A DNA stretch of 64,000 bases. Source: Thiobacillus sp. Lineage in GTDB: Bacteria > Pseudomonadota > Gammaproteobacteria > Burkholderiales > Thiobacillaceae. The DNA lies in NCBI GenBank assembly GCA_021166845.1, contig JAJPEP010000052.1, positions 1 through 64,000 on the forward strand. The letters are read 5' to 3'. A program made the translations under genes and the position numbers. The first letter of the stretch is position 1; each line of letters begins with the position of its first letter. This document shows, in pieces, positions 8,472-37,593 of this stretch. The notes beneath the pieces are model-generated. The model ran no database searches. It saw only the letters and a program-made list of their open reading frames with translations, and was not told the DNA's origin.

Positions 8472-10502
8472 TCATGAGAGCTTTTTCCGCAACAAGTTGC
8501 GAAGGTAACCCTGACGCCAGAAGGTGTTGCGATATCCAAAAATGAGTTCCGGGTAGCTAAGCGGATTCCATATGCTCCCCTGTGGCTTACCGATAAAACG
8601 AGGTACCGCCACGCGCCCAAATCCCTCGGCGTGCTGGAGGCTGCCAAGGCGCATCGACTCCTCGGATGTTGGACGCACAAGCACGGCATGAAAATTTTTC
8701 ACCGCTTCCTCCGGCGGAACAATCGGAAGGGTTTGTCCCTGCCAAATAGCCAGATAATCATCAATGAAACGCATTGCCCCTGCTTGCATGGCGGAAGCTG
8801 CACCCCACCGCTCCGATTCAAAAGCAAAATCCGCAAAAACCGGTTCAACACCCGTCACGCCAGATCGGAAATTACATACACTGCCGTGCGGTGCTGAAAA
8901 AACCCACTCAAATAGCTCGACCGATGTTCTGATGGCTGCATGGAGCGTCTCCGGATATCCCGCCTCACAAAGATATCCATGCATGACCTGACCACGGTCG
9001 GCATAGCGCTTCGCCGGAGGGAACGTTCCCATGTAATAGCCGGCCAGCACGGTCGTCGCTCCCATCCGTCTGATCAGCCTATCCATGGCGTTTTGCAACG
9101 TGCCGTGCCATCCCAGATCGACGATCGCCATATGGCCGCCATCCAACAGGCCCTCTCCTTCAAAATATTGTTTGAGGGCGCCAAGTTCCGATTTCGCCCG
9201 CTCCAGCACGATATCACCCAGTTCTCGCAGCAGAGCGCGCAGACGTCCATATCCCACGGCGCCATCCACAACTTCATCCGGCGAGGAGAAACCAATTTTG
9301 GCAACGGCATCCAGGTGGCATTCAATGTCGATATCGATACGCGCCAAAAATTGCCGGGGCGACATGCGGCTCGTGCCGCTGACCAAAAAATCCAGTGCTT
9401 CTTCGTCGAGATTTTCGATCGCGGCCAGATTAAATGCCCGCCGGGATGCATAAAGATAATGGGTGCGCACCGCATGCTTCGCCCCGGTTTCAGGGCGAAG
9501 CATGCGGTCCACCACTTCCTTGATCAGGTAGCCATCTCGGGACAGAAAGTACACATCGCGGAATGAGTGCCGGCTCACTTCATGTACAAGCCAGGAGCCG
9601 AAACCCGCCAGCAAAGGGCCTACATGCTGGTATCCCCAATCCTTCCAAAAATCCGGACTTGAATCGACACTTCGCGTCGTGGCATCCGGGCTGGTGAAAT
9701 AGCGGGCGGCGATCAGGCCATTCACGATAGAACGAAACAGGCCGGCCTCAAGCGTACCCTGTTGCAGTGACGGCTGACTGGCACGGCGTCCCATCACCGG
9801 GTGGGTCTTGAAATGGGTTCCGCATTTTTCGTAGTGGATTGCCTGGATTCCGAGCGAACGCGCGCGCTTCACGTCCGAATCCGGATTGTCGCCCACGTGC
9901 AGCCATTTCCACGGCGCGATCTTGTGCGTGTCAAAAACTTTTTTGAACAATGATCCAGAAGCCTTCGTCTCTCGGCTGGTCGAAGACACCAGCAGAAAAT
10001 CGTACCCCCCGTAACCCGCCTGCTCCAACAGACCGGCCACCAGCGCTTCATCCAGATACATGTCAGAGATGAAGCCGATCTTCTTGCCGGCACGCTTGGC
10101 CTGTTCGAAAAGGCTTCCTACGAAAGGATTCCGCAATCCATGCGCCTGTTCAATTCCTTGTTCCAGCGCCATAAGCGCTTGCATGCGCGACTCGTCCAGT
10201 TCCAAGTGGACTGCCAAGCGGGCATGGATTTCCTCGAGACGTATCTCTACCCAACCATTTGTCTCCCAGGCATGACGCCTTGCCTCCTTTTCGGCCTGCT
10301 GCCGCGCTTCGGCGAAATCCGCAATTTCAAGCAAGCCGCATGGCAATATTCCTCTCGCCTTGGCCTCTATCCCGACATGCAGAAAGACGTCCTCCGGGCG
10401 AGCGACCCCTCTGACCAGGGCGGTATCGAAGACATCGAAGGTCACCAATTCAACTTCGCGCAGCTTGGCAGCAAAGCGGCGCTGTAACGAACCCAAGCCC
10501 AT
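8472..10502 (-). CDS. HAD-like domain fused to an uncharacterised C-terminal domain (paralogue 1)
   Basis: A 676-residue protein. Residues about 18-225 are HAD-like: VTFDVFDTALVR at the nucleophile (D23), FISDMYLDE as motif II, and VGDNPDSDVKRA as the last metal-binding motif. Residues about 290-600 form a second domain with FLSRDGYLIKEVVDRML, YLYASRRAF and AIVDLGWHGTLQNAM, which I cannot assign. The position two after D23 is Phe, not the Asp usual in HAD phosphatases. The ATG at 10502 shares one base with the previous stop (TGATG), so it is probably translationally coupled to the GT2 gene. A paralogue lies at 17866-19965. A role in glycan assembly is inferred from context. Confidence 0.7.
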   Translation of the reverse strand: MGLGSLQRRFAAKLREVELVTFDVFDTALVRGVARPEDVFLHVGIEAKARGILPCGLLEIADFAEARQQAEKEARRHAWETNGWVEIRLEEIHARLAVHLELDESRMQALMALEQGIEQAHGLRNPFVGSLFEQAKRAGKKIGFISDMYLDEALVAGLLEQAGYGGYDFLLVSSTSRETKASGSLFKKVFDTHKIAPWKWLHVGDNPDSDVKRARSLGIQAIHYEKCGTHFKTHPVMGRRASQPSLQQGTLEAGLFRSIVNGLIAARYFTSPDATTRSVDSSPDFWKDWGYQHVGPLLAGFGSWLVHEVSRHSFRDVYFLSRDGYLIKEVVDRMLRPETGAKHAVRTHYLYASRRAFNLAAIENLDEEALDFLVSGTSRMSPRQFLARIDIDIECHLDAVAKIGFSSPDEVVDGAVGYGRLRALLRELGDIVLERAKSELGALKQYFEGEGLLDGGHMAIVDLGWHGTLQNAMDRLIRRMGATTVLAGYYMGTFPPAKRYADRGQVMHGYLCEAGYPETLHAAIRTSVELFEWVFSAPHGSVCNFRSGVTGVEPVFADFAFESERWGAASAMQAGAMRFIDDYLAIWQGQTLPIVPPEEAVKNFHAVLVRPTSEESMRLGSLQHAEGFGRVAVPRFIGKPQGSIWNPLSYPELIFGYRNTFWRQGYLRNLLRKKLS

Positions 10503-11428
10503 CAACGCTTTTCTCTGGGGAACATCCGTGCCAACCGGCGTATCAAAAAATTACTTCTAAGCTTCTGCAAGACGCGCTCCATCGGCCAAAGCTGACGATG
10601 CAGAAGCTCAAAACTGCTTCCCAAATTAACCAAGAAACCCAATCCGGGTTTGCCTGTTTCCAGGTCACGGCGCAACAATTCATTACGGTAAAGATTTTCG
10701 TAGGCACGATGTTTCGCATCGGCGACAAACACCGTATTGCCATAATCCCCAGACTGGATCGTCGTTCGATGGTGATAATTCGCCAACAACTTGGGGACGA
10801 GGCCGATTTCGTAACGTGCACAAACCCGCAAGTGAAAATCCCAATCGCCCAGCACTGGCAGCTCCTCACGGAAACAACCGACTTCCTCCCAAACATCTCT
10901 CCGGAATAAAAATGAAATGGGCGGAAATGTATTCCCAGCCGCGAGGCGAAAAAGCGAGATCGAAGACATCCAGGCATTGAAAGGCTCGGCTTCGACCCGT
11001 CGCACGTCCTGCCCGTCCATTTCCTCGATGACACGCAAACTATGCGTGACGACTCCGCCATATGGACAATCAAGCTGCGGCTTGTTGGTCGAATCCATAA
11101 ACTCGACGCAACTCGCAAGAAAACCCGGCTCCCAGGAATCATCATCGTCATGAATCACCACGAATTCACTCGAGCATGCGCGGATGCCAATATTGGAAGC
11201 CGCCTCCATGCCCACCGAAGCAGGATTATTTATAACGACAATACGCCCCTTGTATGCGTCCAGATTCGGGGCCAAAACCCGATGGACTTCTTCGGCATCA
11301 CCGCCGTCATTGACGATAACGTGTGTCCAGTCGTGGAATTTCTGTTCGAGCACGCTATGTATGGCACGTTCAAGAAGAATGGCTCTATTTTTCGTACGCG
11401 TGACAACCGTGACTCGTGCCCGATTCAT
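10502..11428 (-). CDS. Glycosyltransferase family 2
   Basis: A 308-residue GT-A enzyme predicted to transfer a sugar from a nucleotide-sugar donor in the cytosol. Visible are the N-terminal TVVTRTKNRAILLERAIHSVL, the nucleotide-binding VNDGGD and the metal-binding HDDDDSW, followed by LGDWDFHLRVCARY in the acceptor half. The ATG overlaps the stop of the upstream GT2 gene by 4 bp (ATGA) and the stop overlaps the next ATG by 1 bp, so three genes form a tightly coupled unit. Sugar specificity cannot be read from the sequence. Confidence 0.85.
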   Translation of the reverse strand: MNRARVTVVTRTKNRAILLERAIHSVLEQKFHDWTHVIVNDGGDAEEVHRVLAPNLDAYKGRIVVINNPASVGMEAASNIGIRACSSEFVVIHDDDDSWEPGFLASCVEFMDSTNKPQLDCPYGGVVTHSLRVIEEMDGQDVRRVEAEPFNAWMSSISLFRLAAGNTFPPISFLFRRDVWEEVGCFREELPVLGDWDFHLRVCARYEIGLVPKLLANYHHRTTIQSGDYGNTVFVADAKHRAYENLYRNELLRRDLETGKPGLGFLVNLGSSFELLHRQLWPMERVLQKLRSNFLIRRLARMFPREKR

Positions 11429-13926: not shown

Positions 13927-14310
13927 ATGAAAATCGAAAGCTTTCGTCGTCCTCCAGTCGCAACATCATGGCTGCCGCGCTTGCTGGCGGCAGGGTCTAT
14001 CTGTGTCCTGTTCGGGGCTGCGGCCTGCTCATCACCCCCTGCTGCTTTACAGACGCCGTTCAGGATCCTGATTGAATTCAAGAAACCAGTCGACGGTGCC
14101 GCAAATAACCTGATATCGCGGCTGGAAACTCTATCTGATGTCTCAATCCGTTATGTGGCACCTGTATCCCCGACACTCCATGCGTATCTACTTGTCTGCC
14201 CGGTGGGTGGTCCGCCCTGCGATGCGGCGATACAAGCGCTGCGCAAGGACCCCGCTGTGCTGAGTATCTCCCCCGATCCATTGCGCAAGCCACTTCATAC
14301 ATCACCATGA
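13927..14310 (+). CDS. Small lipoprotein resembling a subtilase propeptide (I9-like)
   Basis: A 127-residue predicted lipoprotein. The N-terminus has a basic stretch, a hydrophobic helix and a lipobox-like FGAAAC. The mature part (RILIEFKKPVDGAANNLISRLETLSDVSIRYVAPVS in two pieces, then AIQALRKDPAVLSISPDP) has the beta-alpha-beta feel of subtilisin propeptide or I9 inhibitors. Its last codon overlaps the subtilase start (ATGA, 4 bp), so the two are almost certainly co-translated. A stand-alone inhibitor or folding helper for the protease is a reasonable inference; the similarity is by eye and weak. The ATG at 13927 is chosen because it directly precedes the signal sequence. Confidence 0.6.
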   Translation: MKIESFRRPPVATSWLPRLLAAGSICVLFGAAACSSPPAALQTPFRILIEFKKPVDGAANNLISRLETLSDVSIRYVAPVSPTLHAYLLVCPVGGPPCDAAIQALRKDPAVLSISPDPLRKPLHTSP

Positions 14311-16670
14311 TACAAAAGCGCCTGCTGACTGTCCTTGCCTTGTTCCTTGCGTTCGGGGCTCATCCCGCCATAAGCTTGGCTGAGGAAGGGCGCGTCATCG
14401 TGAAATACAGGCAGACACCTGACGCACTCAAGCATGCGCTGTCGCTCGACCAGACATCGAGGCTATCCGCACGCCTCGGTCTGGCCTTGCGGTCCGGCCG
14501 GCACATCAACGCACTGTCCCACGTGATCCGCGCCGCCGACGTTTCCTCCGAAGCACTGGCATCGCGTCTCAGCCAGGAAGCCGACGTGGAGTACGCGATT
14601 CCAGACCGCCTCCGCACGATCCGTTCGCTGCCCAATGATCCCCTGTTTTCGGGTCAATGGTATCTGCAGGCCACCGAGGCGGCGTCGATCCGGGCCACCG
14701 AGGCATGGGATCGGACCACCGGCTCGTCGAATGTGGTGGTAGCGGTGCTCGACACGGGCGTGCGTTTCGATCATCCAGATCTGCTCGCCAAGCTTTTGCC
14801 CGGGTATGACTTCATATCCGACGCGCCGAACGCGGGAGACGGCGATGGCCGCGACGTCGATGCAAGCGATCCCGGAGACTTCATTTCGGCCTCGGACGCC
14901 GAAGACCCAAACCTGCAGGCAGTGTGCGGCAGCGACCTCGTTCCGTATAACAGCAGCTGGCATGGCACCCGGGTTGCGGGCATTGTCGGCGCGGCAGGCA
15001 ACAACTCAGCCGGTATCGCCGGGACGAGTTGGGGCGCAAGGATTCTGCCGGTACGCGTGCTCGGGAAATGCGGCGGATTCGACTCGGACATCATGGCAGG
15101 CATGCGCTGGGCAGCGGGGCTGTCGGTGCCCGGTGTCCCAAACAACCCCAACCCGGCCAGGATCATCAACCTGAGTTTGGGTGGCAGCGGAAGTTGCACG
15201 TCCGCCTATGCGGACACCATCGCGGAGCTGGCAGGTCAGGGTGCGCTCGTCGTGGCGGCGGCCGGCAACGAAACCGGGCCAGTGGGCGCCCCCGGAAACT
15301 GTGCCGGCGTACTGGCGGTCGCCGGTGTGCGCCATGTGGGCACCAAAGTCGGCTACAGCAGCTTCGGGCCCGAGGTTTCGATCAGTGCCCCGGCGGGCAA
15401 CTGTGTGAATGCCTACGGCCCCTGCCTTTACAGCATCGATACGGCAACCAACCTGGGCGCGACCAGCCCGGCAGCGAACGGTTACACCGACGGATACAAC
15501 TACAACGTCGGGACCAGCTTTTCCACGCCCCAGGCAGCTGGCGTGGCCGCGCTGATGCTCTCGCTGAACCAGGCGCTGACCCCGGCGGACATCATCGCGC
15601 GCATCAAGCAGTCTGCCCGCGCCTTCCCAACCGAGAACACCTTGCCAACCTGCCCGAACGCCGCGACATCGGGCGACGCCGCGGGCCAGTGCAACTGCAC
15701 CACGGCCACCTGCGGCGCGGGAATTCTGGATGCGGCGGCGGCGGTCGCTGCCGTCTTACCCGCGACTACCGCGACCCAACCGAGCGCCATGAGCCTGCGC
15801 GATGCGATTTACCTTTACAACCAACCCTTTGATGGCAGAGGCGACAAGATTCTCGCGGGTGTGGATTGTGATGTCTTCCAACTGGTCATGGATGTCACCT
15901 CGGGCTACACCAACCTTGCCATGGGTCAGAGCAATACACTGGCCAACGCCATCGCCACACAGACCGCCTACCTGGACACCATCCAGAACACTGACGCCAT
16001 GTTCGCCTACGCGCTGTATCAGGATCAACCGGTGAAGACCTTCGTGTTCAACGACAAGAATAATCCATCCTCATCGGCCCAGATCGGCAGCGCGACCGTC
16101 TTCGGCTACTGCTACTCGACCAAGCCCACGGCCCACATCTATTTCCAGCAAAAGGACAGCTGCACCAACACGTATTCGGACGAGCACACGACCTCGTGCA
16201 CGGTCGCGGACAATGGCAGTGGCGGAGGATCAGGCAGTGAAGGCAGCCTGACCTTGCGGGATGCCATCTATCTGTATAACCAACCCTTGAACGGGAACGG
16301 CGACAAGATTCTGGCAGGAGAGAATTGCGATGTCTTCCAGCTGATCCTGGATGTGAATTCGGGCTACACCGACCTGGCCATGGCCCAGTCCGGCAGCCTC
16401 GATAACGCAATCGCCACCGGGCTTGCCTATCCGGATCGGATCCAGGGCTCGGCGACGATGTTTTCCTATGCGTTATACGAAAATCAACCGGTCAAGACGT
16501 TCGTGTTCAACGACAAGAACAACCCTGCGTCGTCGGCGCTAACCGGCACGGCCACAACCTTCGGTTATTGCTATTCGACCAACCCGAATGCCCGTGTATA
16601 TATCCGGGAAAAGGATACCTGCACGGATACCTATTCAAACGGACAGACCAGCGCGATTCCGGGATGTTGA
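14307..16670 (+). CDS. Secreted subtilisin-family (S8) protease with two C-terminal LRDAIYLY modules
   Basis: A 787-residue secreted serine protease. A signal peptide (about 1-25) is followed by a propeptide-like region (about 27-105) and an S8 catalytic domain with triad D149 (VLDTGVRFDHPD), H219 (SSWHGTRVAGI) and S404 (GTSFSTPQAAG). From residue 495 come two copies of a module of about 135 residues, each starting LRDAIYLYNQP and containing CDVFQL, a central FxYALY, FVFNDKNNP and FGYCYST. They are joined by a Gly/Ser linker (about 634-645). I do not recognise the module; the neighbouring convergent gene encodes a third copy. The type II secretion system at 50-60 kb is a plausible export route. 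Confidence 0.88.
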   Translation: MIQKRLLTVLALFLAFGAHPAISLAEEGRVIVKYRQTPDALKHALSLDQTSRLSARLGLALRSGRHINALSHVIRAADVSSEALASRLSQEADVEYAIPDRLRTIRSLPNDPLFSGQWYLQATEAASIRATEAWDRTTGSSNVVVAVLDTGVRFDHPDLLAKLLPGYDFISDAPNAGDGDGRDVDASDPGDFISASDAEDPNLQAVCGSDLVPYNSSWHGTRVAGIVGAAGNNSAGIAGTSWGARILPVRVLGKCGGFDSDIMAGMRWAAGLSVPGVPNNPNPARIINLSLGGSGSCTSAYADTIAELAGQGALVVAAAGNETGPVGAPGNCAGVLAVAGVRHVGTKVGYSSFGPEVSISAPAGNCVNAYGPCLYSIDTATNLGATSPAANGYTDGYNYNVGTSFSTPQAAGVAALMLSLNQALTPADIIARIKQSARAFPTENTLPTCPNAATSGDAAGQCNCTTATCGAGILDAAAAVAAVLPATTATQPSAMSLRDAIYLYNQPFDGRGDKILAGVDCDVFQLVMDVTSGYTNLAMGQSNTLANAIATQTAYLDTIQNTDAMFAYALYQDQPVKTFVFNDKNNPSSSAQIGSATVFGYCYSTKPTAHIYFQQKDSCTNTYSDEHTTSCTVADNGSGGGSGSEGSLTLRDAIYLYNQPLNGNGDKILAGENCDVFQLILDVNSGYTDLAMAQSGSLDNAIATGLAYPDRIQGSATMFSYALYENQPVKTFVFNDKNNPASSALTGTATTFGYCYSTNPNARVYIREKDTCTDTYSNGQTSAIPGC
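15789..16667 (+). repeat. Tandem coding repeat of the LRDAIYLY module in the protease
   Basis: Two in-frame units (about 15789-16203 and 16243-16667) encode clearly homologous modules: both have LRDAIYLYNQP, GDKILAG, CDVFQL, KTFVFNDKNNP and FGYCYSTxP. The DNA has diverged at many third positions, so the duplication is not recent. Confidence 0.85.
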
Positions 16671-16717
16671 CGGAATAGCCACGCACCCGGAATGTTCAGA
16701 CCATTGCCACAAACGGT

Positions 16718-17611
16718 TTATTGCAAGGTCATCGTCTGCGTGCAGCCAGAAAATGATGCGGTAATTGTGCCGGCCAGCTTGCCGCCCATTTTCTTCAGGC
16801 CGCTGACTGACACGTCGGGGTTGAATCCCGAACCGCAAACAGCCGTACCGCTCAGGTTGTAGCCAGACGCGCTGTCGCCGGAAAGTTTGTTCAGCGTAAA
16901 GTGGCAGGAATCAGTGCCTGTATAGCCTAGAAGGGTGAGGGTATTGCCGCTCTTCGTGACGTTGTAACTGGCGGCATAATTGCCATTGGCCGCTCCAAGA
17001 GCGGCGCACTGACTGCCGGGCGAACTGATGTAGATGCTTTGCGTATAAGCGCCGACCAGATCCGACATATCGTCGAGTTCAGACGTCGAATCGGAACCCG
17101 CACTCGGCACGCAGTTGGGGATCGTCCCAACATAGCCATCCGAGTATTTCACCGTGCACTTGTCTTCTTCATAAAAATAGACATAGGCGCCGGGCTTGGT
17201 CGAGTAACAGTAGCCAAATATCGTTCCCTCGCCTACCTGGGCGGATGACGTTGGGTTGTTCTTGTCGCCGAACCGGAAAAACTTGTCCGATTTATTTTGA
17301 TACAGCGCGTAGGAAAACATCGCTGCATTATCGTAAATCCGATCCGGGTAAACCAGGGCCGATGCGGCCAACTCGGTATCGTTATTACCCTGGAACATGG
17401 CCAGATCGGTAAAGCCCGATGTGGCATCCAGAACCAGCTGGAACACATCGCAGTTATAACCGCCGAGCACCTTGCTAGCCCGCGCGTCGACGTCCTGGTC
17501 ATACAAGTAGATGGCATCGCGCAGCGTCATGTCTCCGCTGATGAAATCCGCCGAAACATTCGCCGTGGCCAGCATGGCCGACAATCCAATCCCGAAAAGA
17601 CACTTTTTCAT
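16718..17611 (-). CDS. Secreted protein with one LRDAIYLY module and an unknown C-terminal domain
   Basis: A 297-residue predicted exported protein with signal peptide MKKCLFGIGLSAMLATANVS. Residues about 28-165 are a third copy of the module in the convergent protease (LRDAIYLYDQ, CDVFQLVLD, FSYALYQN, FGYCYSTKPG, DKCTVKYSDG). Residues about 180-297 are a different, Gly/Ser/Thr-rich region with four cysteines (SQCAALGAANGNY, DSCHFTLNKLSG, AVCGSGF, FSGCTQTM), likely beta-rich. No enzyme motif is seen. The second ATG (17611) is preferred because GGGG lies six bases ahead of it. Convergent with the protease 47 bp away. A partner, inhibitor or co-secreted surface protein is inferred from the shared module. 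Confidence 0.75.
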   Translation of the reverse strand: MKKCLFGIGLSAMLATANVSADFISGDMTLRDAIYLYDQDVDARASKVLGGYNCDVFQLVLDATSGFTDLAMFQGNNDTELAASALVYPDRIYDNAAMFSYALYQNKSDKFFRFGDKNNPTSSAQVGEGTIFGYCYSTKPGAYVYFYEEDKCTVKYSDGYVGTIPNCVPSAGSDSTSELDDMSDLVGAYTQSIYISSPGSQCAALGAANGNYAASYNVTKSGNTLTLLGYTGTDSCHFTLNKLSGDSASGYNLSGTAVCGSGFNPDVSVSGLKKMGGKLAGTITASFSGCTQTMTLQ

Positions 17612-17638
17612 GCTCATCCCCTTGCCGAGTTGATTGGA

Positions 17639-17869
17639 TTACTGCCTGCCGCGAATTCGATTCAATATGTGCCGCAGGGTCCCTACATGATAGACAAGCC
17701 GTTCGCGCTCGTATATCCAATGCCACAGGCGCCTGCGCTCATAGACAACAAGACCCCTCGCCCCCGGAGAAAAGCCGGGCGTGCGGCTGCGACAGCCCAG
17801 CCGGAACGGCCGGCTCATCGCCCAGAGCCGGCCTACGGACAGCATCAGCCCAATCCTCTTCCTGCTCAT
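17639..17869 (-). CDS. Small arginine-rich hypothetical protein
   Basis: A 76-codon frame whose ATG overlaps the stop of the upstream HAD-fusion gene by 4 bp (ATGA), the same coupling used elsewhere in this cluster, and which ends 27 bp before the next gene. The product has about one arginine in five and contains YERRRLWHWIYERERLVYHV. No family is recognised. The overlap favours a real gene; the composition could equally be chance reading of GC-rich DNA. Confidence 0.35.
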   Translation of the reverse strand: MSRKRIGLMLSVGRLWAMSRPFRLGCRSRTPGFSPGARGLVVYERRRLWHWIYERERLVYHVGTLRHILNRIRGRQ

Positions 17870-19965
17870 GATCTTCTCCGCACGTCCAGCAAGTGCATCA
17901 GGCGAAACAACCAGGCCGGAAACGTCCAGCCGAAGTGCGCGAAGGCGGAGAATTTCCAGGGCTGGTTTCTGAGTTTACGATACAGCTGGCGCGGCCGCAG
18001 CAGGTCGAAGTATTGAATGGAAATCACGCCGATATCCAGCGTGTGGTCGTGACCGAAGTCTTCGGTATGGACCAGCCGGCTGATTTCCCGGACTTCCTCG
18101 CGAGTCGGATAGACCACCGCGCGTTCCAGCAACCCCAGCACATAGGGTTTGATCTCCGTGGCGCGATGGCCGGTTAGCCGCCAGGCGGCATGGAAGTGCT
18201 CCAGATGATCGAGCACCCCGGCCTGAAAGCGCTCGATCAGGGGGTTGCAGGCGATCTCCCCCTGGCGGTCGGGCGCCCGGTCATCCTTGAGTACGGGGAT
18301 CACCTGGCCATCCTGCTCGGCATAGCCAAGGGTTGTGCCCTCGCCCGAGCGTGCGCCCTGCTCGAAGATCTCTTCGAAATCCATGGGCGCGCGCTCGTAG
18401 GAATCGTCACGGCGGGCATCCAGGATGAGTCCTTCGATGCGGTCGCCCATCCCGAAATCGCCATGCATGGCGGCGACGAAGGCGAAATACCAGCCGTGCA
18501 CATCCGGGTAATCCGGCCGCTTGCCAAAGCTGTCGCGCAGGAATTTCTGGATGGTGCCGTTCCAGCCGATGTCCACCAGCGCGACACGCTCGCTGGCGAA
18601 GAATCCCTGCTGTTCGAAATAGCGCCGCAGCCGCTCGCGCGCGATTTCGCCAATGGAACGGATGCGCGTCTGCACGCGTTCGTCGGCGAGAAAAGCGAGA
18701 AGACGGGGGTCGCGCCAGTCGTGCAGGGGCTCGGCAAGATCGGCGAAGCCCTGCTCGCGCGCAAGATCGGCGAAATCCTCCGCCGGCAGCCCGAAGGTTT
18801 TCAGAACCGAGAGCAGACCTTGCTGCTTGGGGTTGTAGAAGGCCACCACGGCCTGTTCCGGGCTGAGGCCTTCAGCCACCGAGGCCGTCGCGACGACTCG
18901 GCGCGATGCGTAGACGTACACCGGCTCAGGCCAGTGCTTGCGGTCCGGCTCCAGTTCGCGCCAGCGGGCATACATCTTTTCGAACAGATAGCCGTCGCGG
19001 GCAAGAAAGAACAGCTTGTCGGGTTTGACAGCCTCGATTTTTTCGATCAGTCCGAGCAGAAAGGTGCTGAAGGCCGGGCCCAGCACGTGCGCGCCATAGT
19101 GATGGAAGAAGTCGGCGCAGGCGGCCTGGCACGCGGCGTCCTGCTCCATGCGGTAGTCGACGATCTCGAAGAAGCGGCGGCCGGGCCAGACACCGCCGAG
19201 CGCCGCCATCTCGGCGGACAGGGTTTGCCGGCGGCGGCGCAGGCGCTCCACCCGCTCGTCGAGATAGATGCCGCGCATGCCGAGCCGCATGGGCGCGCGC
19301 ATGTCGGATGCCAGATTGTCGCCGACATGAACCACCTGAGCGGGCGTCAGCCCTTCCAGCGCTTGTCCTTCCAGCTCCAGCACCCGGACATGCAAACGGC
19401 CGGAATATTTGCCCAGCCCAAACTCGGACGAGACATACAGACGGTCCAGCAACCCGCCCAATCCGCAATCCGCCAGCAAGGCGGCGAGGTGATCGTGGCT
19501 CAGATACATGTCGGAGACGGCAATCGCACGCACACCGCGCGCGCGCAGCCACTCCAGCAAAGCCAGCGCACCTGGCTTGGCGGTGAGCGCCAGGGATTCC
19601 AGTTCGCGCTCGGTACGGTGGACAAACCCGACCAGCGCCGGGTCGGGATGGCCAGCCAGACGCGCCACCCAGCTTTCCACCAGCGGATCGAAATGGCATT
19701 CGTGATCCAGGCCATCGCTCAGGGCGGCGCGGCGCAATTCCCATTCCGCAGTACGACGCGCTTCGAACGCGGCATCTGGCGTAATGCCGCCGATTTTCCC
19801 CGCCAACAGCGCGGCAACCCGGCGCTGGATATCGTCGGGGGGCTCAATGCACCGGGCAAGCAGGGTGTCGAAGACATCGAAGGACACGCAGCGAATAACG
19901 TCCAGGCGGGTTTCCAGCCAAGCTTGCAAGGCTGCGAAATCCTTGACCCGCATCGGTTTTTTCAT
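17866..19965 (-). CDS. HAD-like domain fused to an uncharacterised C-terminal domain (paralogue 2)
   Basis: A 699-residue paralogue of the protein at 8472-10502. HAD motifs are SFDVFDTLLAR (about 28-38), AVSDMYLSHDHL and VGDNLASDMRAP. The C-terminal domain repeats the key wording: FLARDGYLFEKMYARW, YVYASRRVV, and ALVDIGWNGTIQKFL. As in paralogue 1, Phe replaces Asp two residues after the nucleophile. The start at 19965 is 16 bp past the stop of the upstream GT2 gene; a frame from 20007 would overlap that gene. In both places the HAD fusion follows a GT2 gene, so the pair looks like a duplicated module. Confidence 0.7.
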   Translation of the reverse strand: MKKPMRVKDFAALQAWLETRLDVIRCVSFDVFDTLLARCIEPPDDIQRRVAALLAGKIGGITPDAAFEARRTAEWELRRAALSDGLDHECHFDPLVESWVARLAGHPDPALVGFVHRTERELESLALTAKPGALALLEWLRARGVRAIAVSDMYLSHDHLAALLADCGLGGLLDRLYVSSEFGLGKYSGRLHVRVLELEGQALEGLTPAQVVHVGDNLASDMRAPMRLGMRGIYLDERVERLRRRRQTLSAEMAALGGVWPGRRFFEIVDYRMEQDAACQAACADFFHHYGAHVLGPAFSTFLLGLIEKIEAVKPDKLFFLARDGYLFEKMYARWRELEPDRKHWPEPVYVYASRRVVATASVAEGLSPEQAVVAFYNPKQQGLLSVLKTFGLPAEDFADLAREQGFADLAEPLHDWRDPRLLAFLADERVQTRIRSIGEIARERLRRYFEQQGFFASERVALVDIGWNGTIQKFLRDSFGKRPDYPDVHGWYFAFVAAMHGDFGMGDRIEGLILDARRDDSYERAPMDFEEIFEQGARSGEGTTLGYAEQDGQVIPVLKDDRAPDRQGEIACNPLIERFQAGVLDHLEHFHAAWRLTGHRATEIKPYVLGLLERAVVYPTREEVREISRLVHTEDFGHDHTLDIGVISIQYFDLLRPRQLYRKLRNQPWKFSAFAHFGWTFPAWLFRLMHLLDVRRRS

Positions 19966-19981
19966 TTCGGCTGGCGCGTGC

Positions 19982-21145
19982 TCATTGCCAACGCGCAAGC
20001 CAGCCACGCACCCAGCGTACCGGTACGGTCAGCGTTCTACCCAGGCGATAACTCGTGCTGGCCTCCAGCAGGGCTTTCTCTTCCCGGCAAAGCGCCAGAG
20101 CCGCCTGATCCGCGGCAATGCGGGCATCACGCTCCAATACCCAGCGGTCGCGATCCGCGATCCATTCCGCCTGCCTGGCGATGAGCTGCTCACGCTCGGC
20201 GATCCAGGCATCGCGCTCGGCGATCCAGGCATCGCGATCCACGATCCAGGCATCCCGATCTGCGATGAGCGGAAACAGTTCAGCCTCCTTCGCCGCCAGC
20301 GCCTCATGCCGTAGCGTCGCCCAGATTTCTCCCTGGTATTGCTCGATGCGCGCCCACTGCGCAGCCAGATGTTCCAGTCGCACACGTTCCAACGCGTTCC
20401 CGCCCAGCAATTGCGGGACAAGGGCGCGCAACATGGCCGCGCATTCCAGATTGGCTGCCAGCGGCCGTTCACTGATGGTATTGCTCTCATGCAGACGGTA
20501 GTGCAGAAGCGGCGCGTCGAGCCAGGCCAGACGCCTATCCTTGATCAGGCCGCGCAACAGCCATTCATAGTCGAGCACATAGCGGAGATCCCGGAAATCG
20601 CCCACCGCCTCCAGCCAGGAGCGGCGAAATACGCAATTGGAAGTCGTCATGAAGACATTGCCATGCAGCATGGTGGCGTGCCAGTCGCCGGTCTCCATCC
20701 AGACCCGCTTGAGGTCGGAAAAAGCGCGAACCCACCAATGCTCGGGCACCGGCTCGCCGGCGGCGTCGATCAGGACGATGTCGCTGCCCACCAGATCGGC
20801 GCCCGTGTCATGCAGGGTTTGCAGACAGGCTGCGATACGGTCGGGCGCAAAAACATCGTCCGAATTGATGATCGCGACAAACTCCCCACGCGCCATGCCA
20901 AGGGCTTCATTGAGCGTGGCATGCGCGCCCTGATTGGCGTCATGCCGGTAGCGGCGCAATCGCTCGTCCTCGAACGACTGCAACACGTTCCACGTCGCGT
21001 CGGACGAGGCATCGTCGATGGCGATGAGTTCAAGATTGCCATACGTCTGCCCCAGCACGCTCGCCGCCGCCGCCCGCACATAGGGCGCGTGGTTGTAAGC
21101 GGGCATCAGCACGCTGACGAGAGGGGCGGTTTGGGTATTGGGCAT
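19982..21145 (-). CDS. Glycosyltransferase family 2 with WIAERDA heptad-repeat coiled coil
   Basis: A 387-residue GT2 enzyme: LVSVLMPAYNHAPYVRAAAA, AIDDASSDATW and INSDDVFAPDR in the catalytic domain, then a C-terminal coil (about 290-345) of seven-residue units such as RDAWIAE repeated six to eight times. It ends with a basic, amphipathic tail. The N-terminal third is nearly identical to the GT2 protein at 11425-12720. The start at 21145 is fixed by alignment to that copy; an upstream open frame to 21247 is not supported. Trp at a fixed heptad position is unusual and may mark a membrane-surface or stacking interface. Confidence 0.85.
   Translation of the reverse strand: MPNTQTAPLVSVLMPAYNHAPYVRAAAASVLGQTYGNLELIAIDDASSDATWNVLQSFEDERLRRYRHDANQGAHATLNEALGMARGEFVAIINSDDVFAPDRIAACLQTLHDTGADLVGSDIVLIDAAGEPVPEHWWVRAFSDLKRVWMETGDWHATMLHGNVFMTTSNCVFRRSWLEAVGDFRDLRYVLDYEWLLRGLIKDRRLAWLDAPLLHYRLHESNTISERPLAANLECAAMLRALVPQLLGGNALERVRLEHLAAQWARIEQYQGEIWATLRHEALAAKEAELFPLIADRDAWIVDRDAWIAERDAWIAEREQLIARQAEWIADRDRWVLERDARIAADQAALALCREEKALLEASTSYRLGRTLTVPVRWVRGWLARWQ
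20199..20261 (-). repeat. 21-bp tandem repeat encoding DAWIAER-type heptads
   Basis: Three adjoining 21-bp units begin GCGATCCAGGCATCGCG (20199, 20220) and ACGATCCAGGCATCCCG (20241), differing at only a few positions. Looser copies extend on both sides (about 20140-20300). This is expansion by slippage within a coding region. Confidence 0.85.
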
Positions 21146-21168
21146 GGGGTCGCGTATTTTACCGGTTG
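20850..21168 (-). repeat. Duplicated segment B: start of GT2 gene plus upstream DNA
   Basis: This is the partner of 12430-12745. The shared sequence again includes the untranslated CGCGTATTTTACCG just before the start codon. Confidence 0.8.
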
Positions 21169-21343
21169 TGGCATGTCGGGCTAGCCCAAGCTGGGGAAGC
21201 ACAGTGCGGCAATGTACCGTCTCGCCGATATCGGCGTCGCGCACCAAAGCGAAGTGAAGCGTTCACGCGAATGGTTTTAACCCAGATGGTCCCTTAGCCG
21301 GTTTGTGGCTCGTAGGATGCGCCGTGCGCACCGATCCATGCCC
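21169..21343. other. Intergenic region with a partial GTGCAC-type repeat
   Basis: No gene is seen. At 21310-21337 lies TAGGATGCGCCGTGCGCACCGAT, which resembles one arm of the GTGCAC palindromes elsewhere (TAGGGTGCACTCCGTGCACCGAT). A 14-bp perfect palindrome CGCCGATATCGGCG occurs at 21223-21236; it may be chance or an operator. Confidence 0.45.
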
Positions 21344-24300
21344 CTATCGTTTAAAGATCCTTCTACGGAGATCCAGTCCGAACGCCAGCGGGTCCGCGAC
21401 CTGCCAGTTCGGGCTATGCGGCGACAGGCTGGGGTTGAAATAGGGATCGCCTGTCTCGAACAACGCTTGCCACTTCGCGAGGAAGCGTTCGCTGTCTTCG
21501 GGATGCGGGTCTTCATTGCTGCGGCCGCGGGTATACGATTCATGGTGCAACAGTTCGGCGTGCGCACAGAACAGGGTACGGTAGCCCTGCTTGCCGGCCC
21601 GCAGGCACAGATCCACATCCCCGTACCCCACGGCGATGGTTTCATCGAAGCCGCCGATGCTCTCGAACACGCCCCTGCGGATCAACATGCAGGCGGCCGT
21701 CACCGCCGACACCTCGCGGTTGCAGATGAGCGATCCGATATAGCCCAGATCGAGGGGGTTTTCGGACGTGACCCGGAAGCGTCCCAGATTTTCCGCCACG
21801 CCGCAGCAGGCCACCACCACCCCGGCATGCTGGATCGTCTTGTGGTCCGGGTAATACAGCTTCGCGCCGACGATGCCGACATCCGGCTTCTGACCCAGCT
21901 CCAGCATGCGTTCCAGCCAACCCGGCGCGATGGCCTCGATATCGTTGTTGCAGAAAAGGTAGTGGCTATGGCTGCCATCCAGCTGCGCCACCGCCCAGTT
22001 GTTGAGCGCCGCGAAATTGAACGGTCCGCTGTAGCGCAGCAACGTCACCCGCGAGCCGAGGCTTTCGAAGCAGGCGAGCGAGACCGAATCATCGGACTCA
22101 TGGTCGATGAGCACGATCTCATGGACGGCATCGCCGGCCGTGCGCTCGATGCTTTCGATGCAGGTCCGCACCAGCTCGCCATGGTTTTTCGTCGGGATGA
22201 CGATGGCCACCTTCAGGCCCGGCGCCAGCGGATAGCGGACATCGAAATAGTTGAAGCTCGGCCCGTCATGCACCTCGCCTGCTTCGCCGCAGCGTTGCAG
22301 ATGCCGCTGCAAGATCGCGCGCGAAGTCTGCATGACCTGCCCGATCATCCGGTGACCGGCCGAATTGCCGTGAATGCGCCAGCGATAGAGCATTTCCGGG
22401 ATGTGAACGATTGTCTTCGCCTGCTCGCTGGCACGCAGGATCAGATCGTAGTCCTGGGAAATGCGCAGATTCTCGTCGACCCCCCCGATCCGTCTCAGCA
22501 AGCCGGGTTTGAAACCGACCAGGTGGACGATGTAGGGATGCGAACGCAGGTACTCGAGCGAAAAGGCGGGCCGGAAGATGAAATGCTGAACCGTCTCGCC
22601 ATCCTCGCCGACCAGCACCTCGTCCGAATAGAGCATGTCCGGATCGTCCGTCAGCACGGCCTCGGCCACCCGGAAAAGCGCCTGCTCCTCGAGCAGGTCG
22701 TCGTGGTCCAGCAGCACGACGAAATCTCCGCTGGTCATCGCCAAGGCGCGATTGGTGGCGCGCGATACCCCGCCGTTTTCAATCGCGAAATCCAGCCGGA
22801 TGCGCGCATCGCGGGCCGCATATTCCTGCAGCAGCGTCCGTACATGGGGCGCGCTGGAGCCGTCGTCGGCGATGCACAGTTGCCAGTGCGGGTAGAGCTG
22901 GGCACAGACCGAATCGAGCATCTCCCGCAGCATGGACGCGGGCGTGTCGTGAGTCGGCACCAGCACCGAGATCAGCGGCGGGGCGGCCATCGCCGCGATG
23001 CGCTCGCGCATCGTCTGCCGCACTTCCGCCGTGAACGAGGCGCGGTAGTGCCGCAGAATGCGTGCATGCCAGTCTTCCTCCGCCGCCGGCACCGTGTCAG
23101 CGAGTTGTGAAGACGCAGCGACGACGGAGTCGTCCGTGCGCACCAGCGCCAGCTTCAGCCAGCGCAAGGGGCGCGTGATCCGCCAGCTTGTCGAGGCGCG
23201 CATGGCCTGCAAATCGGCTTCGCACCGCGCTTGCGCGCCCAGCGCTTCGTCGCGCTGCCGGGTAGTCTCGGTAAGGCGAACCATGAGCAGTTCGCGTTCC
23301 TGGTTGCCCCGGGCGATCAGCGCATCCTTCACCCAAAAAGTGAGATGCAAGTTTTTGATTTCCTTCCAGCGCCGGGCAGATTCCATGGCCAAATCGATCA
23401 CGCCCTGCTCCGTAATGCCACTCACACTGACCGCCACGCCCCCCCTGTCAGGTGCAGCCCGGGGCGATAACGGCAGAAGCCGGTGATAATCGTTCACCAT
23501 CTCGGCCGCGCTCCGGGGATGCATTTCCTTCAAACGCCGGGCGATTTCCTGCAAGCCAGTCCTGTCGGCATCGATTGCCTGCAATTGCTCGACGAGGGAA
23601 TCCGCGGTCGGCTCAAACAGATATCCGGTCTCGGCATGTCGAATCCTTTCGGCGAAAGCCGCTACCCGCGTCGCTACCGGCGGGATGCCCAGCATCATCA
23701 ATTCGCCCAGGGTATAGCCGTAGGTTTCAGCACAGATGCTCATGAGCAGGCCCGCGTGCGGAGAGATGCGTGCCACGATCGCGGGAAGCTCATGCAACGT
23801 GTAATCGCCCAGGACATGAACCCCGATGTGTCCGCGGAAAAGCTCCCCCAAAGCCCCGCTGCCGACTAGATATACATCCGCAAAAGCAGTGATGGCGTCG
23901 ATGGATTCGCTCAACAATTTGACCCCCTTGCTGGGCGCCAGCATGCCCAGGATGAGGACGCGCAGGCGCTCATGGTCTCTTTGCATCGCGTATTCCAGCG
24001 GACCGAACAGGGTGCCGTGGCCGTGGGGGATGACCACCGCGCCAGCGTGTCGAAAGCGGGATTCCAGACGGATCAGGTTGTCCAGCACCGATTGGCTGGG
24101 AGCCACGAGGCTCAATCGCCCGCTGGTGACCAAATCGACGTAGCGACTGCGTACCGCCAGGCGCTCTTCTGCCGGGAAATCCTGGAAAGGATTGAAATCG
24201 TGGTTGTTCCTAGTACAGTCCGCGAGACGCTCGGCGTCGCAGTGACTGCAAATGCCACGAAAATGGATGTTGATTGCAGGGCAATAAGGATAGTAATCGT

Positions 24301-25651
24301 GGCAGACAACCAACGTCGGCAGCTCCGTGGCGAGGATGTCCAGCGAATGGCCGATGAGGGAGGACACGATCACGCCGCCGACCGCGTGCGTTTCCAGCAC
24401 CTCCCGCACCGCGTCTCGATACTCGGCGTGCGTCACCGCGGTTGCCTTGATCGGCTCGGAAAAGAGCCATAGCCGCTGCGGCGTCTTGTCCAGCACATGG
24501 CCATACAGCGCCAGGCCTTCCCCGAAGGCATGGCTCCTGCTGAATGGCTTGAGCACGAGATTGATGCGCTCCGAATCGGCCAGGCAATAATCCTTGAGCC
24601 ACTGTCCGATGCCACCGCCCAGATCATGCACCAAGTGAAGTTGGACCGCCTTTGCCTGGCTGCCGGGCACGTTGGCGGCGCGCAGGCTGGAATCCCGGCC
24701 TGCGCCGAGCAAGCGGCTACGCCTTTCGCTTTCCAGTTCCAAACTGACGGCCCTGCGACATTCCGCAGCCGGATCCTCCATGACGAAGCGCCTGATCACA
24801 TCGTCGTAGTCCGGGTGAAGGCCCAACAGCGTTTTCGCGGCGCTGGCCTGGAGCAATTCACGTTCGGCACCGAAACTCGCGCCGCCGGCGTGATATACGA
24901 ACGTGTCGGCGCACAATACGTTCTTCCTCCCCGTCGAAACCACTCGACGGCTGAAATCGTTTTCCTCGCCATAGCCGCGACCGAAACGATCTTCATCGAA
25001 TGGCCCCGCCTGTTCCAGACAGGTGCGGCGGATAAACATGCAAAACCCCACCGCTGTGGGTATCTCGATCCATTTACCGGCATTGACCCGGCGAAAAATG
25101 GCGTCCAACTGCTCCAGCGTCACCCCAGCCGGCAGCCGGTTATCGGAACAAAACTCCGGATAACTGCAAATCGTCGCGTTGTTGGAAAAGGGCGTCACCG
25201 TGCCGATATCCGGTGCGTTCCGGGCGCAGCGCCGCAACCGGTCGAGCCAGTCGTTGGCGACTTCGGTATCGCTGTTGAGCAGCACGACGTCGCGATCTGT
25301 ATGCAGCGCCATGCCGCGGTTCACTGTCCGCACAAAGCCGAGGTTATGCGGATTGCGCAGCACCGTCACGCATTCGCGCCCCTCGAGGCTGGCCAGGTAG
25401 TGGGACAGCGCCGGCTCCGGACTGGCGTCGTCGATGACGATGAGCTCGAACGCGGTTTTCTGTCGCGCGGCCAGGATCGACTCCAGGCATCGGCGTGTCT
25501 TTTCGATGTCCCGATAAACCGGAACGATCACATCGACAGTCAGGGAGCCGCTCTCGCCGCCCAATTCTTCGTTCACGATCAGCCCAAAAAGGCGAATTTT
25601 GCCATAGATGCGCGCCGTGGCTTCCCGCGGCACTTTGCGACCAGTCAACAC
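21344..25651 (-). CDS. Giant multidomain glycosyltransferase (GT2-GT4-GT2-GT2)
   Basis: A 1435-residue cytosolic protein with four glycosyltransferase-like domains. Domain 1 (about 38-290) is GT2: VDVIVPVYRDIEKTRRCL, IDDASPEP, LLNSDTEV. Domain 2 (about 330-715) is GT4-like: HLVHDLGGGIGQWLKDY, then RVLILGMLAPSKGVKLL and MSICAETYGYTLGELMMLG. After a coil come domain 3 (about 890-1110, ISVLVPTHDTPASMLREML, ADDGSSAPH, LLDHDDLLEE) and domain 4 (about 1150-1400, VAIVIPTKNHGELVRTC, LIDHESDD, FCNNDIEAI). The start is a GTG with GAGG upstream. Such proteins can build a repeating oligosaccharide processively. It is divergent from the GT-C gene, 75 bp away. Confidence 0.88.
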   Translation of the reverse strand: MLTGRKVPREATARIYGKIRLFGLIVNEELGGESGSLTVDVIVPVYRDIEKTRRCLESILAARQKTAFELIVIDDASPEPALSHYLASLEGRECVTVLRNPHNLGFVRTVNRGMALHTDRDVVLLNSDTEVANDWLDRLRRCARNAPDIGTVTPFSNNATICSYPEFCSDNRLPAGVTLEQLDAIFRRVNAGKWIEIPTAVGFCMFIRRTCLEQAGPFDEDRFGRGYGEENDFSRRVVSTGRKNVLCADTFVYHAGGASFGAERELLQASAAKTLLGLHPDYDDVIRRFVMEDPAAECRRAVSLELESERRSRLLGAGRDSSLRAANVPGSQAKAVQLHLVHDLGGGIGQWLKDYCLADSERINLVLKPFSRSHAFGEGLALYGHVLDKTPQRLWLFSEPIKATAVTHAEYRDAVREVLETHAVGGVIVSSLIGHSLDILATELPTLVVCHDYYPYCPAINIHFRGICSHCDAERLADCTRNNHDFNPFQDFPAEERLAVRSRYVDLVTSGRLSLVAPSQSVLDNLIRLESRFRHAGAVVIPHGHGTLFGPLEYAMQRDHERLRVLILGMLAPSKGVKLLSESIDAITAFADVYLVGSGALGELFRGHIGVHVLGDYTLHELPAIVARISPHAGLLMSICAETYGYTLGELMMLGIPPVATRVAAFAERIRHAETGYLFEPTADSLVEQLQAIDADRTGLQEIARRLKEMHPRSAAEMVNDYHRLLPLSPRAAPDRGGVAVSVSGITEQGVIDLAMESARRWKEIKNLHLTFWVKDALIARGNQERELLMVRLTETTRQRDEALGAQARCEADLQAMRASTSWRITRPLRWLKLALVRTDDSVVAASSQLADTVPAAEEDWHARILRHYRASFTAEVRQTMRERIAAMAAPPLISVLVPTHDTPASMLREMLDSVCAQLYPHWQLCIADDGSSAPHVRTLLQEYAARDARIRLDFAIENGGVSRATNRALAMTSGDFVVLLDHDDLLEEQALFRVAEAVLTDDPDMLYSDEVLVGEDGETVQHFIFRPAFSLEYLRSHPYIVHLVGFKPGLLRRIGGVDENLRISQDYDLILRASEQAKTIVHIPEMLYRWRIHGNSAGHRMIGQVMQTSRAILQRHLQRCGEAGEVHDGPSFNYFDVRYPLAPGLKVAIVIPTKNHGELVRTCIESIERTAGDAVHEIVLIDHESDDSVSLACFESLGSRVTLLRYSGPFNFAALNNWAVAQLDGSHSHYLFCNNDIEAIAPGWLERMLELGQKPDVGIVGAKLYYPDHKTIQHAGVVVACCGVAENLGRFRVTSENPLDLGYIGSLICNREVSAVTAACMLIRRGVFESIGGFDETIAVGYGDVDLCLRAGKQGYRTLFCAHAELLHHESYTRGRSNEDPHPEDSERFLAKWQALFETGDPYFNPSLSPHSPNWQVADPLAFGLDLRRRIFKR

Positions 25652-28207: not shown

Positions 28208-28635
28208 CCCCATTCCGCCGCGCTCTCAAATACATCCCACGAGCCGCCATTACCCATCCTTCGGTACAGAGCTGGTTCATTGGTTTTTCGTTGCACGTGG
28301 TAACGGGTGTACTGGCAGTGTTGACCCATTATTCGATCATGTGGGCATTGACACAGATCGGTATGGCTGCGGTTCCTGCAAGCACGGCCGGCTTCGCCGG
28401 GGGCGCCGCCGCGCGCTACCTGCTCTCGTATTACAAAGTGTTTTCGCCAACCGAAAGTGTTCCCACGACCTTGTTCCGCTTCGCCGTCGCGCTTGCCGCA
28501 CAGATGGCGGCAAACACGCTCATGCTGGCTTTTTTTCTGCATAACGGATTGTCTGTCTGGAGTGCGCAAATCACCACGACCGCCATCCTGACCTTCGCCA
28601 ACTATCTGGTCTACCGGCTATGGGTCTTCAATTGA
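28204..28635 (+). CDS. GtrA family membrane protein (putative flippase)
   Basis: A 143-residue protein with four predicted membrane helices and the GtrA pattern, ending with the typical FANYLVYRLWVF. GtrA proteins are thought to flip undecaprenyl-phosphate sugars. The start is GTG at 28204 overlapping the previous stop (GTGA). The 3' end overlaps the end of the convergent GT41 gene by 18 bp. Confidence 0.88.
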   Translation: MTPFRRALKYIPRAAITHPSVQSWFIGFSLHVVTGVLAVLTHYSIMWALTQIGMAAVPASTAGFAGGAAARYLLSYYKVFSPTESVPTTLFRFAVALAAQMAANTLMLAFFLHNGLSVWSAQITTTAILTFANYLVYRLWVFN

Positions 28636-30981: not shown

Positions 30982-31006
30982 ATGCCGCCTCCCACTCCGC
31001 TCCATT

Positions 31007-33010: not shown

Positions 33011-33020
33011 GCTCGGGTTG

Positions 33021-36671: not shown

Positions 36672-37593
36672 GGGCGGTCGATGCCTCCGCCATCCCGGCC
36701 GTTCGGAAGAAGGCCGCAACGCCGGGCCAGTGGTGCCACGAGGGCGGATCCCGGCGGATCATCTCCTCGAGCCTGGCCACCAGGAGCGCGAGCAAAGCCT
36801 CTTCGTCCTCGATGCGCCCCAGGCCATCGATGTTCAAGACACGTTTCCCCGATTCGCGGTCAAGGGATACGTCATAGACGACCACCGGCATTTTTTCGCT
36901 GACCGCCAGATGGATCAGGCCCCGCGGGAAGGCCGCCCGTCGCCCGAGAAACTCGCACTCCAGGTGCTTCTGTCCTTCCTCGGGGGGAACGTCCAGCAAG
37001 GCCACGACGTTTCCACCCTCGCGGAAGCGGCGCCGGATCCGCGACAAACTCATCGCCGTCGCGTAGATGACCCCGCCGCCGCCTGCCGCAGCCGTCTCCC
37101 GGGTGCGCCAGTCTGCGTAACGGGCCAGCACGGGGTGCCCGGCGAACAGGGAGGCCGGGATGTCCCTGACCAGGACGGCGGCCGGCCGACCGCTCTGACG
37201 CATGTGTCGCAGTCCCCATAGCCCGGATCCCCAATGAAAGGTGATGGCCAGAAAAGGCCCCCCGCTCTCTGGCCAGGCGCCGCTCTGAACCTCCACAAAG
37301 CGGCGCATCCACCGCCGGCCACGGAAGCGCGACAGATAGAGATCGGCGTGGTCCACCAGACGCATGAGCCGGAACGCCCGTGCCCAATCGCGGGGCTCCC
37401 GCACGAGCCCCTGACCGGCTGCCGCCGCCACGGCGGCCTGCGTTTCCCCCCGATACACCCAGTCATGGCCAGCCAGCCAGCGGAAGAATGGGAAGCACAG
37501 GCGCCACGGCAGGAGCAGCGCCATCCCTGGCAGCAACATCAGTTCCAGCACTTCCCGCAAGGTGCGGCGGTCGACCCAGCCTGACGCGCTCAC
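36664..37593 (-). CDS. LpxL/HtrB-like acyltransferase family protein
   Basis: A 309-residue protein that resembles lipid A biosynthesis acyltransferases: an N-terminal hydrophobic helix (LMLLPGMALLLPWRLCFPFF), ITFHWGSGLWGLRHM at the place of the catalytic HX4(D/E) motif, then FREGGNVVALLDVPPEEGQKH and FLGRRAAFPRGLIHLAV. The acidic residue expected five after the His is a Leu, so the classical catalytic pair is not visible. The GTG at 37593 overlaps the ATPase stop by 4 bp (GTGA) and is preferred to an ATG at 37635. Could act on a lipid carrier or glycan lipid; activity is uncertain. Confidence 0.7.
   Translation of the reverse strand: MSASGWVDRRTLREVLELMLLPGMALLLPWRLCFPFFRWLAGHDWVYRGETQAAVAAAAGQGLVREPRDWARAFRLMRLVDHADLYLSRFRGRRWMRRFVEVQSGAWPESGGPFLAITFHWGSGLWGLRHMRQSGRPAAVLVRDIPASLFAGHPVLARYADWRTRETAAAGGGGVIYATAMSLSRIRRRFREGGNVVALLDVPPEEGQKHLECEFLGRRAAFPRGLIHLAVSEKMPVVVYDVSLDRESGKRVLNIDGLGRIEDEEALLALLVARLEEMIRRDPPSWHHWPGVAAFFRTAGMAEASTAHA

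Follow-up and report, generated by a model that had tools for sequence, protein, structure and literature searches.

Why should a secreted protease and a separate exported protein, encoded convergently in the genome of a Thiobacillus, carry the same sequence module? The question arises from 64,000 nucleotides of Thiobacillus sp. (GCA_021166845.1, contig JAJPEP010000052.1, positions 1 to 64,000; this whole stretch is hereafter called the window), in which a module of ~135-140 residues occurs three times. Copies 1 (15780..16199, plus strand) and 2 (16239..16667, plus strand) constitute the last ~300 residues of a subtilase of 787 residues (14307..16670, plus strand), and copy 3 (17111..17539, minus strand) stands right behind the signal peptide of an exported protein of 299 residues (16718..17617, minus strand), with 47 bases between the ends of the two genes. 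The original prediction, made from the letters of the window, had pointed out the three copies and had proposed that protease and partner co-localise, for instance on a surface glycan. From our analysis, the module is a domain that exported proteins of unrelated kinds have in common, mostly at their C-termini, it accompanies a gene for a probable ribofuranosyltransferase, and we tentatively lean towards its being a retention domain for the cell's own ribofuranose-containing surface glycan.

A module shared by unrelated exported proteins

The three copies were borne out by our comparisons: copy 2 is 66% and copy 3 is 54% identical to copy 1, and 65 of 147 columns are invariant. When the convergent protein was compared by tblastn with its own genome (limit E 10), only the protein itself and the two subtilase copies were recovered, the latter with E-values of 9.9e-50 and 1.7e-47, and because of these values the likeness is not due to chance. 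Our collection comprises 29 near-complete copies from nine genomes (Thiobacillus, two metagenome-assembled genomes (MAGs) of Azoarcus, and the genomes G539 and G720), among which L4, R5, Y11, C28, D29, G40, Y62, D64, M72, F73, Y75, L77, Y78, Y108, C109, and S111 (numbered as in window copy 2) are invariant; the two invariant cysteines (C28 and C109) probably form one disulfide. Neither Pfam nor NCBIfam has a match for the convergent protein or for the module part of the subtilase. Searched singly against Pfam, 20 of 21 module copies gave no match at E 1, the lone match (GATase_6, E 0.11) being at chance level, and sequence searches of the PDB with module profiles returned nothing or importin matches at E 0.7-0.9. 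The module is undescribed as a domain family in the Pfam, NCBIfam, and PDB sequences searched, in keeping with the original prediction, which could assign it to no known domain. A description of its context was not found in the open-access literature, the part of the literature covered.

Structure prediction, which had been proposed as a check on the module, gave a confident all-beta fold: the AlphaFold2 model of copy 3 has a mean predicted local distance difference test score (pLDDT) of 93.3 and a predicted template-modelling score (pTM) of 0.88, and it comprises nine strands and a single short helix. In our reading, the modelled module is jelly-roll-like, and no solved structure is close to it. 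Its Foldseek neighbours are weak and of mixed beta-sandwich type (cysteine oxidases, SEC14-like proteins, the carbohydrate-binding modules CBM28/16/4, a lectin, the subtilase Tk-SP, and viral capsid proteins), and with matches this weak a lectin cannot be concluded from the fold by itself.

The 29 copies are spread over 15 enzyme- or passenger-type proteins (21 copies) and small exported proteins (8 copies). The last module, where intact, ends 1-17 residues from the C-terminus in all 15 of the enzyme- or passenger-type proteins; this count is without L036, in which the module is cut by a contig end, and L037, which holds degenerate fragments, and contig ends cut L032, L033, and L034 N-terminally. 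The parts ahead of the module are unrelated to each other: some are S8 or trypsin-like proteases, and others are, by eye, glycosidase-like or rich in repeats. The Azoarcus trypsin-like module proteases match PF13365 and that of L027 also lysyl endopeptidase (E 5.9e-28), while L031, from the same Azoarcus MAG (G504), combines a trypsin-like protease, InlB-like repeats, and the module. Judged by their sequences, the protease catalytic parts belong to known families and resemble AprV2/BprV-type subtilases of Dichelobacter and lysyl endopeptidases, from which the C-terminal module sets these proteins apart. L030 matches the uncharacterised structure 5jvk (E 9.1e-5), and L034 and L036 are alike by eye; in our reading these three would be glycosidase-like, and L033 and L035 repeat-rich, with neither Pfam nor NCBIfam giving a glycosidase or repeat family for any of these five. 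We also noticed that the non-protease proteins L030, L033, L034, and L035, all of G504, end in a tryptophan nine residues past the module, which the module proteases of G504 and of the other Azoarcus MAG (G505) do not.

Export is indicated by a crude signal-peptide rule, which was positive near the start in 6 of 8 small module proteins and in 6 of the 8 enzyme-type proteins tried, one L028 protease with a match at residue 150 being counted as a miss; the remaining four (two small, two enzyme-type) look exported by eye only. At the C-termini of the module proteins, no PEP motif, no hydrophobic or basic tail, and no transmembrane helix was seen in the last 14 residues, nor by eye in longer tails.

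Of 117 genomes of the family to which the window belongs, a profile search with the three copies found the module in five, all of one genus, the relatives being deposited as Thiobacillus MAGs. All five carry the subtilase with two module copies, and three of the five carry the convergent module protein. Among 249 genomes sampled from the family of G504, the module is present in three (G504, G539, and G720). The complete genome G539 repeats the layout of the window, an S8 protease with two copies followed by a convergent small module protein, and in G504 and G505 a trypsin-like protease with the module lies beside small exported module proteins. Hence the pairing of a protease with a neighbouring module protein, first noticed in the window, recurs with S8 proteases in the Thiobacillus genomes G103 and G081 and in G539, and with trypsin-like proteases instead in G504/G505; no known family was matched, and the pair is kept as neighbours in other genomes. 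In a scan that took a single genome for each species (84,980 genomes) and required exact short peptides, so that diverged copies escape it, 30 pattern matches were obtained, of which 7 were confirmed at 6 loci (four in Thiobacillus, two in Azoarcus MAGs). G504, the genome of L027, has 12 profile matches, of which 9 are near-complete copies; a contig end truncates another, and the other two are fragments within a single degenerate locus. By eye, several of its module genes stand singly among unrelated genes, and L029 is its second small module protein. The degenerate locus (L037:409-939) holds split remains of the module, which suggest that module copies decay. In a class-wide sample of 369 genomes, the module was found only in the window's own genome, and G597, a further genome of the genus of G539, has none. 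Two scans of viral contigs and those of plasmids and phages gave no module relative, and a phage or plasmid origin is unsupported for that reason.

The neighbouring ribofuranosyltransferase-like gene

Next to the convergent gene lies a gene (17866..20007, minus strand) whose product has a HAD phosphatase part and a C-terminal transferase-like part. Pfam recognises only the HAD hydrolase (PF00702) in it. The product is colinear with PDB entry 7shg, 'Ribofuranosyl transferase', over both parts (total E 1.5e-19), with an independent E-value of 7.9e-13 for residues 35-256 (HAD) and of 0.0017 for residues 331-652; in the alignment, its DVFDT corresponds to DIFDT of 7shg, and its VDIGWNGTIQ to VDVGWKGTIQ. 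A weaker match (E 5e-4) falls on Bcs3 of the capsule of Haemophilus influenzae type b (Hib). The product is therefore predicted to be a probable ribofuranosyltransferase and very probably belongs to a known kind of enzyme. In excerpts of PMC11231755, the Klebsiella O4/O7 ribofuranosyltransferases are presented as a phosphoribosyl pyrophosphate-dependent ribofuranose 5-phosphate transferase plus phosphatase, and excerpts of PMC10299916 describe the domains of Bcs3 and a Thermobacillus composti structure of a HAD-like phosphatase, a putative ribofuranosyltransferase. The window protein shares with 7shg and these enzymes the HAD phosphatase and transferase parts; unlike them, as far as those excerpts go, it is encoded beside module genes, is fused to a GT2 glycosyltransferase in three relatives, and is known here from sequence. 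That GT2 glycosyltransferase (PF00535) is a separate gene in the window (19982..21247, minus strand), and its counterpart is fused ahead of the transferase-like part in G504, G505, and G539, in each of which the fusion gene lies beside module genes. In L028 (4329-9143), two similar trypsin-like module proteases flank a small module-protein gene, convergent to the GT2-transferase fusion.

We then compared the distribution of module and transferase, taking as close relatives of the latter those with E below 1e-200 and at least 53% identity. In the window's family, close relatives occur in 5 of 117 genomes, the same five that have the module. In the family of G504, they occur in 4 of 249 (G504, G539, G645, and G720), three of which have the module. 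Pooled, the two family scans cover 366 genomes; 9 have close transferase relatives, and the 8 that have the module are all among these 9. In the order sample, which shares some genomes with the families, two genomes of 399 carry close relatives, and these are also the ones whose module match reaches E 0.001 or better; a further module match there, in G398 (E 0.006, 44 profile positions), was treated as chance. Without the seed genomes, the hypergeometric probabilities are 1.4e-7 (116 genomes) and 9.8e-5 (248 genomes), values that ignore relatedness.

Proposed retention on a surface glycan and its rivals

The module is best read as an address because it is common to unrelated exported proteins and is inherited with a surface-glycan enzyme gene. 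We infer that, after export, the jelly-roll-like module, probably held by its one disulfide, would serve as a C-terminal retention tag by binding a ribofuranose-containing polysaccharide on the surface of the same cell; the ribofuranosyltransferase for this polysaccharide would come from the adjacent gene. The subtilase would thus be held at the cell surface, as would trypsin-like proteases, glycosidase-like proteins, and repeat-rich passengers in the relatives, and the small exported module proteins would coat or cross-link the same glycan. Retention without a covalent bond is favoured because stand-alone copies in small proteins and tandem copies suit a binding domain better than a signal. 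With somewhat less confidence, we consider that some Betaproteobacteria may have a hitherto unknown display system for proteins, in which a folded C-terminal domain sends unrelated exported enzymes to a ribofuranose-bearing glycan, by binding or covalently, with the small module proteins as a coat and the transferase in the same heritable unit.

Of what had been supposed about the locus from the letters alone, the idea that now fares best is co-localisation on a surface glycan, given that the module accompanies the ribofuranosyltransferase-like gene. A dedicated two-component system of protease and partner is unsupported in view of the presence of the module on other, scattered exported proteins and the occurrence of the subtilase without the convergent gene in two of five Thiobacillus genomes. 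Mimicry of a substrate or inhibitor by the module is likewise unsupported; the inhibitor-like gene of the locus is a different one, the lipoprotein-like open reading frame (ORF) upstream of the subtilase.

Several observations weigh against retention on the glycan. The five Thiobacillus genomes probably represent one acquisition of a whole island and are then not independent, and G645 has the transferase in a Wzt/Wzm cluster with no module detected. With weaker transferase matches (E 1e-31 to 1e-34) included, 13 genomes of the two family scans have a transferase match, and 8 of them have the module; we took such weaker matches as paralogues (G523, G533, G636, and G648, second copies in G000, G096, and G097, and G386 of the order sample). 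In G720, module and transferase are on different contigs (C529 and C552), at least about 18 kb apart as judged from how far each lies from its contig ends. G096 and G097 are without the small module protein and have no third module match genome-wide, and the module is not C-terminal in the convergent protein of the window, where 136 residues follow, or in the small protein of G720, where 51 follow. As for the fold, the top PDB match by Foldseek is a plant cysteine oxidase (E 7e-4), template-modelling (TM) scores by query reach at most 0.51 among the best 50 rows per library, and those of the weak CBM28/16/4 and lectin matches are 0.23-0.31. The searches begin with a coarse first pass and MAG assemblies have gaps, so that diverged or unassembled modules can be missed. 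Finally, the link to the glycan would be equally expected if the module were glycosylated or acted as a secretion signal.

A sorting or attachment signal is the strongest alternative, and we consider it unlikely. In this case, dedicated machinery would recognise the module, export or process the protein, and link it to the glycan in the style of type IX secretion with anionic lipopolysaccharide (A-LPS) or of PEP-CTERM/exosortase. The same C-terminal place on unrelated cargo, several scattered single module genes in one genome, and the tie of the module to a surface-glycan gene are all as such a signal would have them, and comparable systems are described in excerpts of PMC1569441 and PMC4560394. 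However, most small module proteins consist of little beyond the module and so would have no cargo, and a signal would not be expected in tandem, as in the S8 proteins, or near the N-terminus, as in the window protein. The module proteins have no PEP motif and no hydrophobic tail, and the NCBIfam sorting-domain models have no match in the window subtilase, the convergent protein, L027, L030, L033, L034, L035, or L053; nor did a receptor turn up, though no search aimed at one was made.

Like the C-terminal domain of type IX secretion with A-LPS anchoring in Porphyromonas, as given in excerpts of PMC4560394, the module is C-terminal on unrelated secreted proteins and linked to a surface glycan, but it is a different domain (no NCBIfam match), occurs in another phylum, and is also found in small stand-alone proteins; neither a translocon nor a sortase was identified for it, no search for them having been made. 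It shares with PEP-CTERM/exosortase, so far as excerpts of PMC1569441 describe it, several genes per genome, diverse fronts, and the association with polysaccharide genes, whereas PEP-CTERM is short with a transmembrane helix and the module is a folded domain of ~135 residues without a hydrophobic tail. These two systems already provide examples of C-terminal address tags bound up with surface glycans, and the whole arrangement would be a variation on them. If retention on the glycan is true, a folded tag of Betaproteobacteria linked to one sugar enzyme would offer a concrete pairing of tag and glycan, would name a family of exported proteins unlabelled in the libraries searched, and would make the module a candidate ribofuranose-recognising domain.

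Improbable, in our view, is a structural or cleavable C-terminal domain of the PPC kind without a specific surface partner. As with PPC domains and carbohydrate-binding modules, the jelly-roll-like module is a beta-sandwich at the C-terminus of secreted proteases or on glycosidases, and Foldseek lists the subtilase Tk-SP (3afg, 9ues), a match that we take to fall on its C-terminal jelly roll. The module has no sequence match to these domains, and its structural similarity to them is weak; PPC (PF04151) was not matched by any of the 21 copies searched against Pfam, the module is found in stand-alone small proteins and behind parts that are not proteases too, and a neutral domain is not expected to accompany a glycosyltransferase gene. 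Binding of modules to each other, with the small module proteins as docking partner or scaffold for tagged enzymes, is the least probable by our estimate: a small module protein does lie beside the tagged protease in three of five Thiobacillus genomes, G539, G504, and G505, and the small-protein copies cluster on the tree more than shuffled labels do, but G096 and G097 hold no copies beyond the two of the subtilase, and on the best tree 4 changes are required. None of 200 bootstrap trees (0%) unites the small-protein copies in one group, although the well-supported branches are compatible with one origin.

The rest of the locus

The S8 membership of the subtilase is evident from Pfam (PF00082, E 2.3e-50, 172 bits against a cut-off of 21.8), and the DTG, HGT, and GTS motifs of Asp, His, and Ser were read by eye in the translation, which comprises a signal peptide, a propeptide, the catalytic domain, and the two C-terminal modules. 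The solved chains nearest to it are 7w2a, 5yl7, and 3ti7, together with the AprV2/BprV enzymes. Upstream, and opening the region under study with its ATG at 13927, lies the lipoprotein-like ORF of 127 residues (13927..14310, plus strand), the stop of which overlaps the ATG of the subtilase (ATGA). The ORF is kept with the same overlap in five of five Thiobacillus loci (the window and L023-L026). By eye it has a signal with a lipobox-like cysteine, followed by a mature part of ~80 residues, and it matched 0 Pfam families at E 1, no NCBIfam model, and no I9-type family; the propeptide of the subtilase itself is likewise without a Pfam match. When the five lipoprotein-like mature parts were aligned by hhalign with the propeptides of the five Thiobacillus subtilases and that of G539, a probability of 92.9 was obtained (E 3.8e-7, 76 columns). 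These shallow alignments are moderate evidence that the small protein is homologous to the propeptide of the adjacent subtilase. As a separate propeptide-like partner, it may restrain the subtilase or help it to fold before it reaches the surface. A fusion of the lipoprotein-like domain to the front of the G539 subtilase is unsupported (hhalign probability 0.2), and the comparison of the lipoprotein-like profile with the module was negative.

Behind its signal peptide and module, the convergent protein carries an extra domain of ~125 residues (16718-17100, minus strand), for which a beta model with a pLDDT of about 50 was obtained; in view of that score, its Foldseek resemblance to Cap15 (7n34, TM by target 0.68) was not used. 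The counterparts in G103 (173 residues, shorter) and G081 (198 residues, strongly diverged) are both without the extra domain. Six of the eight small module proteins, among which the window protein and that of G720 are counted, end 2-14 residues past the module. On the tree, the small-protein copies require 4 changes against a mean of 7.2 for shuffled labels, with 2 of 500 shuffles as low, and long branches are present. One old lineage of small module proteins does not emerge from a best tree of 4 changes.

The genome to which the window (contig C95) belongs measures 3.2 Mb, with a completeness of 86% and a contamination of 6%, and the module locus is embedded in a glycan cluster. Besides the GT2 gene, this cluster has a large multi-glycosyltransferase protein (21344-25651), three TPR proteins with GT41 (O-GlcNAc-transferase-like) domains (28618-33337 and 41389-43626, minus strand), methyltransferases, and Wzm/Wzt-like ABC transporter genes (37590-39646, minus strand). 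The latter encode a Wzt-like ATPase with a Wzt_C domain and an ABC-2 membrane protein, a pair that by its sequence is of the type for ABC-transporter-dependent glycan export. A second HAD-type, transferase-like protein (8472-10505, minus strand), 29% identical to the product of 17866-20007, is perhaps a second pentosyltransferase of the same cluster. The whole O-antigen-type cluster was rejected as a conserved unit, since the stretches covered around the module genes of G539, G504, and G505 show the GT2-transferase fusion and have no match to Wzt, Wzm, or the large glycosyltransferase of the window (E 1e-15). Relatives of the last lie about 74 kb off in G539; those in G504 and G505 are on contigs other than the module contigs, so that nearness is possible there. 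In G096 and G097, a GT41/TPR relative (31-33% identity) directly adjoins the module subtilase.

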